The notes beneath the pieces are model-generated. The model did not search any database. It was given only the letters and a program-made list of their open reading frames with translations, and had not been told where the DNA came from. Made by a program: the position numbers and the translations under genes. Below are positions 8,112 through 16,415 of a stretch of 64,000 bases of DNA, one piece after another (position 1 is the stretch's first letter; the number at the start of each line of letters is the position of its first letter). Source of the DNA: Pirellulales bacterium (lineage in GTDB: Bacteria > Planctomycetota > Planctomycetia > Pirellulales > Thermoguttaceae); NCBI GenBank assembly GCA_016928165.1, contig JAFGLH010000262.1:1-64000 (forward strand), written 5' to 3'.

Positions 8112-9032
8112 ATGCCCATGCCGATCCATCTGCCGCCGATCAACCGCCGCGATTTCCTGTCCGGAACCGTCGCCGCCGGGGCCGGATTGCTCCTGCCCCG
8201 CAATCTCTTGGCCGAAGAAACCACGACCGACCCGAATCTCTGGGTGCTGATGGCCGACGTTCACGTCCCCGCAGACCGCGAGAAAATTCACCGCGGGATT
8301 CAGCCGGCGAAAAACCTCGCCCTGGCGATCGAGCGAATCCTCGCCTTCGCGCCCCGCCCGGCCGGGATGATCGTCGCCGGAGACGTCGCCATCGATTACG
8401 GCGAAGCGGGCGACTACGCCACGCTCGGCGCGCTGCTCAAACCGCTGCGGGCCGCCGGCGTGCCCGTCCACTTCGCCCTGGGCAACCACGACAACCGCAA
8501 GCGGTTCCTGGCCGCCTTCCCCGACGCGGAAAGAGCGGCCGCCGTCGAGCCGCAAAAGTTCAACAAGTTCGTCTCCATCGTCGAAGCCCCGCAAGCCGAT
8601 TGGATCCTGCTCGATTCGTTGAGCCTGCCGGACGGCGTGCCCGGCCGAATGGGCAAGGCCGAGCTGCAATGGCTGGCCGAGACCCTCGACGCCCGCGCCG
8701 ACCGCCCCGCGCTGCTGGTCGCCCACCACAATCCGGATCGAAACATGAAGGCGCAGGGGCTGCTCGACACCGCCGAGTTCCTGGCGGCGGTCTTGCCCCG
8801 CAAGCAGGTGAAGGCCTACTTCTACGGCCACACCCACGCCTGGAACGTCTCACGCGAGGACGACCTGCGCCTGGTGAACGTCCCCGGCAACGTCTGGCTG
8901 TTCGACAAGACACAGCCGCGCGGTTTTCTTACCGCTCGCTTGCAGCCCGCCGGAGCGAACATTCAACTCCACTCCCTCGACCCGACCCATTCCAAGCACG
9001 GCGAGCGGGCCGCGCTGAAGTGGCGGGCGTGA
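8112..9032 (+). CDS. metallophosphoesterase with TAT signal
   Basis: INRRDFLSGTVAAGAG TAT motif; GDVAIDYG, LGNHDN, VAHHNP, GHTHAW metallophosphatase motifs. Confidence 0.9.
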   Translation: MPMPIHLPPINRRDFLSGTVAAGAGLLLPRNLLAEETTTDPNLWVLMADVHVPADREKIHRGIQPAKNLALAIERILAFAPRPAGMIVAGDVAIDYGEAGDYATLGALLKPLRAAGVPVHFALGNHDNRKRFLAAFPDAERAAAVEPQKFNKFVSIVEAPQADWILLDSLSLPDGVPGRMGKAELQWLAETLDARADRPALLVAHHNPDRNMKAQGLLDTAEFLAAVLPRKQVKAYFYGHTHAWNVSREDDLRLVNVPGNVWLFDKTQPRGFLTARLQPAGANIQLHSLDPTHSKHGERAALKWRA

Positions 9033-9063
9033 GACGGAAGGCTTGAGGCCGGAGGAGGAGTAG

Positions 9064-9083
9064 GGTGCGTGCTTGCACGCACC
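9064..9083. repeat. perfect hairpin
   Basis: GGTGCGTGC TT GCACGCACC. Confidence 0.75.
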
Positions 9084-9140
9084 GTTCTCGACTAATTCAG
9101 AAGTGTGCGGTTGTAAGCCCGAAGGGCTTTTATAAGACAG

Positions 9141-9171
9141 CCCTGGGTTGCCGCGCAGCGGCTACCCAGGG
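9141..9171. repeat. hairpin, 14-bp stem with one mismatch
   Basis: CCCTGGGTTGCCGC GCA GCGGCTACCCAGGG. Confidence 0.75.
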
Positions 9172-9396
9172 GGAACTTCACGCGCCATGCCAAAAAAACA
9201 GCCGCCCTACTGACGCAAGGCGGCCGGTTGCCCCGTAGGGCATGGCCTGCGAATGACTATGCAATTTACAGCGCTTCGATAAAAAAAGCCGCAGGTCGGC
9301 TTGCGAGCTGCGGCGGTCGCTAAAATGCGGTGCCTGCGGATGTTTCGCCTTGTAGTGTATCCGATCCCAGCCCGTGAGCAAGCCGCAACTTATGTT

Positions 9397-9449
9397 TATT
9401 TATCCAGAAAAATCCCCCGGCGCAGCCGGGGGATTTTTCTGGATAAATA
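9397..9449. repeat. perfect inverted repeat: 25-bp arms, 3-nt loop
   Basis: TATTTATCCAGAAAAATCCCCCGGC GCA GCCGGGGGATTTTTCTGGATAAATA. Confidence 0.95.
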
Positions 9450-9548
9450 TTTCACCAAACAAACCGCCATCGCGTCTAAATTGGGCTGCCTGGCATAAAT
9501 ACATTCTTGAATAATATTATTTCTTCGCCGAAAACACGCCGCGGGGCC

Positions 9549-9596
9549 GGCCGTGCCTGACAGACTCATCCGGCAACACAATCGTCAGGCACGGCC
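9549..9596. repeat. inverted repeat, 13-bp arms
   Basis: GGCCGTGCCTGAC ... GTCAGGCACGGCC. Confidence 0.85.
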
Positions 9597-9831
9597 TGAC
9601 CTACGGGGTGATTGGCACAAATCTTGAACTTGAATCGACGCTTCGCCGCAGATAGGATCGCTCTTGCCGGAGATTAGGCCGGAGGCTGGAGGTCGAATAG
9701 CTCGCTGCTCATAACTCAAAGCTCATATCCGTCGCGGAGGGGGAACGGGGGGGTTAAGAATGGAAAATCGTGAAGTTGATGACCAACAGAATCAATGGCC
9801 AGCGGTCGGCGGCTAGCGGTCGGTGGCCGGG

Positions 9832-11304: not shown

Positions 11305-11405
11305 GTAACCGTTCACGGGCCGGGGACTGGCTCATTTTTTCGCCCTTTCAAGGGCGAAAAATGTGCCTGCCCCCTTCACCGCCGAGGGGTACAGTCCCCT
11401 GTAAA
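11305..11405. repeat. dispersed palindromic repeat, family 1, copy B
   Basis: GTTCACGGGCCGGGGACTGGCTCATTTTTTCGCCCTTTCAAGGGCGAAAAATGTGCCTGCCCCCTTCACCGCCGAGGGG; copies at 1737-1875 and 35119-35190. Confidence 0.85.
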
Positions 11406-14171: not shown

Positions 14172-16415
14172 TTATTGATCGTCCTTGTTTTGCGGTTCAT
14201 TTTCCTCGCCCAGTAGTTTTTCCAGCCGATCGAGCGCGCTGGTCGCCAAAGTCGAGGTGAAACCGTTCAGCTCGAACGGCTCGCGATGGGCATAGGCGTA
14301 TTTCATCGACTCGGTGTCCTTGCGGAGCAATTCCGCCACGCGCTTGGCTTCTTCGTAATGAGGGCGGGCTTCGTCCTTTTTGCCGTCCCAGATCAAATGA
14401 TACGCCTGAATGCATTGGTCGTAGTAGCGAAGCGTCAACTCGGCGTAGGTGAAGATTTTTTCGTCCTCGGCAAGCCGGGCCTTGATCCGCTCGGGCAGCT
14501 CTTGCGACCGTGCCTCGTCGATCAACTCGCGGCACTTTTCGCAGGCGGCGACCATTTCAACCATCGTCGGCCCATCGAATTGTTTCCCTTCCACGGGCCG
14601 GTATTGCATGTGCGAATCTATCAGCAGGGGTTTTTGGCCCTTCGCCAACCGGCTCGGCAGGCCGGGGTGCCAGCCCTTGAGCAACTCGATGTTGCAGAGC
14701 ATCTTTTCCAGCGATTCGTAATAGCGGCGCATGGTCTCGGCCACAGGTCCGTAGCGCTTGGCAAAATAATCCTCCCACAGTGCCTCGCAATCGGCGTCGA
14801 CGTCCCAAATTTGCCGGGCCATCTGGTAATTGGTCAACGACTTGCTCCCCCAGAGTTTGGTCGTCACGTGCATGTAGTGGAAATGCCGGGCGCCGGCGCG
14901 GTAATAGAAGGGAATGTCGTGCTGCATGACGTGCATGAAACAGACTGGCAGCCCCTTGAAACGGGAATAATTGTAATACTCGCCGATGCAGACCCGGCCG
15001 CGAAAATGCCGGTCGGGGTCCGTCATCCAGCCTTCGAGTTGCTCTTTATAATGAGAGCGGAAATCGCATTCCGGATCGCCGAACCGATGGACGTAGCAAC
15101 GCTTGATGGGGAAGAAGGTCGCCTGACACATTTCGTAATCGAAGTCTTCCGGCAGCGGCCGGGTCGGCGGAGCGACCACGTCGGCATAGGCCAGAAAACG
15201 GATGAGGATCGGCCGATTTAGCCGCCCTTCGCGTTGGACACGCTTCAACTCTTGGGCGAAGCGATGGACCAACAGCATGTAGCGGTCGGTGGGGGTTCCC
15301 AGCGCCTTGCACTGCGGGCACTCGCACCATTTGCCCCAGTCCGCCGTCCAGACGCGCGCGATGTCCGCGCCGCGGTAGCGGCCGTCGACGATCGCCTGGG
15401 CGAAGTTTTTCGCGTATTCGGCGCAGGCGTCGGCGTTTGACGTGCAAAAATTGGGGCCATGTATTGGCTCCGTCTTTGACGAACGATGGCCGTCGAGCAA
15501 TGCGAACCATTCGGGATGGGCCTCGAAGTACGTCAGCTTGCCGTCCTTGTCGGCGTCGCCCTGATAGGATTCGCTTTTGGCGTAAGGATCGGCGTGCTTC
15601 GCTTCGTCGCCGTCGAAATCGGGGTGGTTGTAGGGGTACTCGGACTGCGGATTGAGGAACAGACGTTGGGAGTCGTGCCCGCCGCAGACCATCTTGATTC
15701 CCAACTTGCGCATCAGCGGCTTGTCGTCCACTTCAATGGTCCATTGGTTGAGCCGGTTGCGGACCATCCACTGGATGAACTCCGGGGTGTCGCGCTTGCC
15801 GACGGAATGGAATCCCCGGATCTCGAACGACGGTTGCTCCGTAACGTCGAAGGCCGGCTTCCACTCGGCATGTGGAGTTTCCTCGTCGAACGCGGCGGGG
15901 CTGAACCAACGGTAGCCGAGCCGATGGAGCAGGTCGTAAACGCCGTATAGCGTTCCGACCCGTCCGCCGCCGGCGATGATCGTGACGCGGCGACCATCCG
16001 CCTCGGCGGTCTTGATCCGATAGCCCTGCTCGCCTAGTTTTTCGATGGCCTCGGCATCGACGCCCAGCGCCTCGGCCATTTGTCCGGCCGTCGCGTTGCT
16101 CGACGGGGAGCCGATCAGGATCAACTCGCCGGGGGGAGTTATATTGTCGTCCGCGATATTAAAATCGTCGTTGCGGCCGGTCATTTTGCGAAGGAACGTC
16201 TGCAATTCAAGCGCGGCGAAGGCTTCGGTGCAGACCGTATCGTCGCTCCGGTCGGCGTCGGACCAGTCGACGGTTGCTTCGCAGTTGCCTGCCGCCTGGG
16301 CGGATGGGTGCGGACCGAAGTTGACGACTATCGAGGTCTCGGCCCGCGCCGACGGGGTGACAAGCATAACCGCGCCGACGGCGGCGCATAGTGTGTTCTT
16401 GGCGGCCATTCTCAT
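14172..16415 (-). CDS. DUF4838 domain-containing protein
   Basis: Signal peptide MRMAAKNTLCAAVGAVMLVTPSARA; called ORF start at 16511 includes the promoter, SD GGAGGAAA precedes ATG at 16415. Confidence 0.8.
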   Translation of the reverse strand: MRMAAKNTLCAAVGAVMLVTPSARAETSIVVNFGPHPSAQAAGNCEATVDWSDADRSDDTVCTEAFAALELQTFLRKMTGRNDDFNIADDNITPPGELILIGSPSSNATAGQMAEALGVDAEAIEKLGEQGYRIKTAEADGRRVTIIAGGGRVGTLYGVYDLLHRLGYRWFSPAAFDEETPHAEWKPAFDVTEQPSFEIRGFHSVGKRDTPEFIQWMVRNRLNQWTIEVDDKPLMRKLGIKMVCGGHDSQRLFLNPQSEYPYNHPDFDGDEAKHADPYAKSESYQGDADKDGKLTYFEAHPEWFALLDGHRSSKTEPIHGPNFCTSNADACAEYAKNFAQAIVDGRYRGADIARVWTADWGKWCECPQCKALGTPTDRYMLLVHRFAQELKRVQREGRLNRPILIRFLAYADVVAPPTRPLPEDFDYEMCQATFFPIKRCYVHRFGDPECDFRSHYKEQLEGWMTDPDRHFRGRVCIGEYYNYSRFKGLPVCFMHVMQHDIPFYYRAGARHFHYMHVTTKLWGSKSLTNYQMARQIWDVDADCEALWEDYFAKRYGPVAETMRRYYESLEKMLCNIELLKGWHPGLPSRLAKGQKPLLIDSHMQYRPVEGKQFDGPTMVEMVAACEKCRELIDEARSQELPERIKARLAEDEKIFTYAELTLRYYDQCIQAYHLIWDGKKDEARPHYEEAKRVAELLRKDTESMKYAYAHREPFELNGFTSTLATSALDRLEKLLGEENEPQNKDDQ

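Follow-up and report, generated by a model that had tools for sequence, protein, structure and literature searches.

A perfect single-copy 25-bp hairpin between convergent genes, a candidate bidirectional terminator, beside a probable CRISPR-Cas9 relic in a Pirellulales bacterium

What is the origin and possible role of a flawless inverted repeat that lies far from any coding sequence in a Pirellulales genome? In the window, by which we mean the whole stretch of 64,000 nucleotides analyzed here, positions 9397-9449 read TATTTATCCAGAAAAATCCCCCGGC-GCA-GCCGGGGGATTTTTCTGGATAAATA, 53 bases in which the arms are complementary at 25 of 25 positions around a 3-nt loop, exactly as the initial annotation of this DNA had described them. 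The predicted RNA fold of 9380-9470 has an energy of −43.2 kcal/mol, with z = −9.1 against dinucleotide shuffles. In a census covering 917 kb (25%) of the 3.62-Mb assembly of the same genome, no perfect hairpin with a loop of 3-10 nt was longer, the next being of 21, 20 and 16 bp, and in first-order Markov controls of this sequence no arm exceeded 12 bp. The hairpin is far beyond chance. The two longest runners-up (21 bp, L155:812-857; 20 bp, L139:4987-5030) are unrelated to it in sequence, and the 20-bp hairpin is itself present as a single copy.

The 53-mer occurred once in a search of the complete assembly, and no further copies of its core were found across that assembly when up to three mismatches were tolerated; the alternative first considered, that the hairpin is one of many degenerate copies of a common repeat, is contradicted by this count. 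Nothing in the window matched Rfam at the gathering thresholds, and no tRNA genes were found. An artefactual foldback introduced during assembly is unlikely, because the flanks beyond the 53 bp are not complementary and the contig continues for another 100 kb. BLAST searches of the order in which the hairpin alone was the query returned only short partial matches caused by the palindromic core, and these were set aside.

The nearest coding sequences are a metallophosphoesterase gene with a Tat signal (PF00149, PF10518; 8112-9032, plus strand) and a gene for a Holin-X superfamily III protein (PF07332; 9832-10239, minus strand), the latter being the final gene of a minus-strand run. Their ends are 364 and 382 nt from the hairpin, in agreement with the ~365-380 bp given by the initial annotation, which had overlooked that both are 3′ ends, i.e., that the genes are convergent. 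With both 3′ ends facing the hairpin, the intergenic region around it is convergent. In the congener G095, 9.5 kb and other genes separate the two, and the hairpin is absent at the corresponding gene ends of both congeners, G095 and G197. This loss of synteny, together with the missing hairpin, indicates that the region is lineage-specific.

We consider it probable, with moderate confidence, that this single-copy hairpin serves as a bidirectional intrinsic terminator between the two convergent transcription units, the metallophosphoesterase on the plus strand and the Holin-X run on the minus strand. Its central part, AAAAATCCCCCGGC-GCA-GCCGGGGGATTTTT (9408-9438), is terminator-like on either strand, since the two strands are nearly identical and differ in the 3-nt loop only. 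The layout is symmetric, with A5, a GC stem and T5: the core CCCCCGGC-GCA-GCCGGGGG forms a GC-rich stem with a short loop, and on each strand a U-tract, ATTTTTCT, follows directly after the stem. The position between convergent genes is also that expected of a bidirectional terminator, though at some distance from both. When 59 convergent intergenic regions sampled from the same genome were filtered for an A-tract, a GC stem and a T-tract in this arrangement, the region of the hairpin alone passed, and none of the 59 shuffled regions did. In either direction of approach, a polymerase would copy the GC-rich stem and then U5, so that one DNA element would release both transcripts. The stem owes its unusual length to the extra AT-rich base pairs. 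A scan of the plus strand from 9032 to 9830 listed no terminator sites, leaving the hairpin as the sole candidate on that strand; the hairpin itself escapes the simple scan, since the long stem pairs its T-run. For transcription of the minus strand, the T-runs of the tail modules described below are also terminator-like, and the hairpin would therefore be the first of several.

Some features count against a terminator. In the full-length stem the T5 run is base-paired, and 25 bp exceed what termination needs. The two congeners, moreover, lack the hairpin at the equivalent gene ends. The gap of 364-382 nt to the stop codons is larger than in nearly all of 35 comparison loci. Furthermore, a hairpin followed by a U-tract was detected in only 12 of 409 regions downstream of genes in this genome, with 12 in the antisense control and 1 of 409 after shuffling; such sites are rare at gene ends, and intrinsic termination may thus be a minor mode here. 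The distance to the stop codons and the scarcity of U-tract hairpins are the reasons why our confidence in the terminator reading is kept moderate. Intrinsic terminators mapped in Zymomonas mobilis occur between convergent genes more often than expected and have an A-tract on the side opposite to the U-tract; bidirectional terminators with these two tracts are documented in such settings (PMC7566282). With the bidirectional terminators of E. coli and Z. mobilis (PMC7566282), the hairpin, as a candidate terminator, shares the convergent setting, the GC stem, the A-tract and U-tract and the strand symmetry; it differs from them in its perfect 25-bp stem, which includes both tracts and 11 more pairs, and in its distance from the stop codons.

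The same core is also found elsewhere. The inner 27-nt pattern AAATCCCCCGGC-NNN-GCCGGGGGATTT is present, without mismatch, in 35 contigs of other, mostly unrelated bacteria. By simple ORF calls, which make these context counts crude, 32 copies could be placed. Of these, 24 lie outside called genes, where 12% of random positions fall (p 6e-16). Convergent genes flank 11 of the 24, compared with an expectation of 19% (p 0.003), and for 16 of the 18 copies that could be measured a gene 3′ end is no more than 71 nt away. In five of the 35 contigs the core carries perfect arms of 25-36 bp, so that the hairpin of the window is not the only one to combine this core with long perfect arms. The initial annotation was right to remark that the hairpin exceeds the length required and does not adjoin a gene end, yet at least five other contigs hold arms of this kind. 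The five hairpins (L041, L053, L062, L065 and L067) are proteobacterial and have the form TTAA-N9-11-AAATCCCCCGGC-NNN followed by its mirror, and their outer arms are unrelated yet perfectly complementary. A kinship with the hairpin of the window was considered, because core and long arms are shared, but the window copy lacks the TTAA and we treat the likeness as convergence.

The intergenic region holds more than the hairpin. When relatives were searched with the whole region, positions 9354-9389 matched direct repeats of the relative G135 spaced 66-67 bp apart, which form a CRISPR array, and two further stretches matched sequences beside cas9 in relatives. On the minus strand, 9354-9389 is a single 36-nt type II CRISPR repeat, GTTGCGGCTTGCTCACGGGCTGGGATCGGATACACT, written here in the orientation complementary to the anti-repeats of relatives and identical to relatives' repeats at 29-35 of 36 positions; the matches include genuine arrays adjoining Cas9 (TIGR01865) and cas1. 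Two tracrRNA tail modules, each ending in T7, were detected on the same strand by a profile and by a covariance model derived from the tracrRNAs of relatives' Cas9 loci, one at about 9282-9353 (covariance model 44.2 bits, E 3.4e-7; nhmmer E 8.7e-11) and the other at 9194-9267 (64.6 bits, E 8.1e-12; nhmmer E 1.4e-15). On the minus strand the hairpin comes first, followed by 7 nt, the repeat, tail module 1 with T7 and tail module 2 with T7. No anti-repeat precedes tail module 1; the strand runs from the repeat straight into the tail, and the place of the anti-repeat is taken by the repeat in the opposite orientation. Neither was a recognizable anti-repeat found at tail module 2. The assembly contains no second copy of the repeat and hence no array of two or more repeats. 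The region, called gene-free by the initial annotation, is indeed free of protein genes, but it contains this repeat and the two tails at 9194-9389.

Cas9 was detected in 33 of the 118 relatives searched, and was not found in this assembly (88.5% complete) or in those of the congeners G095 (94%) and G197 (87%). The repeat and the two tails are shown by homology to be counterparts of type II CRISPR components, and they are probably the remains of a CRISPR-Cas9 locus that decayed or was lost. Judging from the layout of the locus L224, the observed order would follow from a deletion of cas2-cas1-cas9 and the anti-repeat that brought the last repeat of an array up against the tracrRNA tail.

The type II loci used for comparison (L224-L228, from G135, G008, G206, G004 and G001) carry Cas9 (TIGR01865), and type II Cas1 (TIGR03639) was confirmed in L224; in their tracrRNAs, an anti-repeat leads into a tail that closes with a T-run. 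Such a tail is shared by the window, as is the 36-nt repeat, which is 29-33/36 identical to those of the six Cas9-bearing relatives compared. Unlike these loci, the window has no detected cas9, no array and no anti-repeat, its repeat is fused to the tail, and it carries two tail modules in tandem and a hairpin that the compared loci lack. Tandem double tail modules were also seen upstream of cas9 in L268 (G073) and L227 (G004). Apparent combinations of repeat and tail in L290 and L228 were among many repeats and were judged to be chance spacer matches. In G095, a lone repeat at another place (L274, G095:C106:12480-12515) is 35/36 identical to that of the window and has neither Cas9 nor a tail; genes nearby resemble a DNA-repair exonuclease and a helicase, according to names read from the translations. 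Isolated CRISPR repeat remnants are comparable to the window in having one repeat without an array, and the window differs from them by retaining tracrRNA tails.

Since the hairpin is only 7 bp from the repeat and on the side where spacers and array are expected, we asked if it belongs to the CRISPR locus, as a leader, an array end, a stabilizing element or the 5′ part of a minus-strand RNA containing the repeat and tails. We regard this as very unlikely. Near the arrays or tracrRNAs of nine related loci no comparable hairpin was present (0/9), the array ends of the closest relatives being likewise without one, and the hairpin is therefore better described as a neighbor than as a component; as judged from these loci, it is not a conserved part of the CRISPR system. 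The failure to find Cas9 in the genome argues in the same direction, as do the 23 nt 5′ of the repeat, which have no exact match in viral contigs, and the fold of repeat and tail, which surpasses shuffled sequences by a small margin only (z −1.9). We hold it to be similarly improbable that the hairpin, repeat and both tails form a retained CRISPR-derived RNA, a natural fusion of repeat and tail shielded by a strong upstream hairpin and working without a Cas9 of its own or with one missing from the assembly. If this were true, the 35/36 identity of the repeat in G095, compared with ~76% for neighboring genes, would reflect selection. The initial annotation had proposed a strong bidirectional terminator of an unannotated ncRNA. 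The terminator half of this proposal is the best of its four guesses, the others being a transposon or REP-type end, a phage or plasmid origin remnant and an integrator-type site, in view of the convergent genes, the A5/GC-stem/T5 layout and the mostly intergenic location of the core elsewhere. As for the other half, an ncRNA relic does adjoin the hairpin, but the relic has T-run terminators of its own and nothing indicates that the hairpin serves it.

A more serious competitor, although we still think it rather unlikely, is that the hairpin has no selected function and is a recent foldback, produced by template switching beside the decaying CRISPR locus and not yet decayed itself. Such a product would fit a hairpin that is single-copy and was not found in the congeners, a region rearranged relative to G095, and the two other perfect hairpins of 20-21 bp and unrelated sequence in the sampled part of the genome, one of which was checked for copy number; the mechanism itself is documented. 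Against this explanation, the core has the textbook form of a GC stem flanked by correctly placed A5 and T5, and it recurs mostly between genes in other bacteria. A mobile origin, in the form of a REP- or MITE-type palindrome or a transposon end, has very little to commend it: the genome is rich in repeated hairpins, such as the 173 copies of TTTTTCGCCCTT..AAGGGCGAAAAA, and some proteobacteria hold at least 20 copies of the stem core, but there is exactly one copy of the hairpin here with three mismatches allowed, viral contigs contain no exact match to the core, and the surrounding region has no phage or plasmid match. Dispersed genomic copies, which a REP or MITE family should have, were thus not found, and copy number largely refutes this reading, including the transposon or REP-type end suggested earlier; the suggested remnant of a phage or plasmid origin likewise found no phage, plasmid or viral matches to support it. 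The repeated hairpin just mentioned also occurs in the window (11336-11361); its 173 matches in the assembly, counted with up to two mismatches, are often at contig ends, and it lies inside a MITE-like element with the ends GTAACCGTTCAC and GTGAACGGTTAC.

The hairpin is most likely a bidirectional terminator, an element of an ordinary kind that here takes an extreme form. Its perfect symmetry would result either from recent copying of one arm by a template switch or from repeated events that keep the arms identical. The exact symmetry would be explained most simply by template switching during replication, a documented process that can both generate perfect hairpins and preserve them (PMC8794818). 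If the hairpin is a terminator, it adds one more two-way terminator that is unusually long and perfect, and it exemplifies how flawless inverted repeats can arise outside repeat families. The adjacent relic indicates that this lineage lost a type II system but kept a repeat and tracrRNA tails, and because both this relic and the lone repeat of G095 are without Cas9, the loss and possible retention of CRISPR RNAs can be studied within one genus.

Two further observations were made on the CRISPR loci of relatives. In L276 (G187:C15), a small gene pair that, by eye, resembles a HicB/HicA toxin-antitoxin system has a complete tracrRNA on either side. In L225 (G008), a perfect 15-bp hairpin at 14178-14211, ~90 bp after the tracrRNA, contains GTTTCACGTGAAAC, which resembles a ParB-binding parS site.
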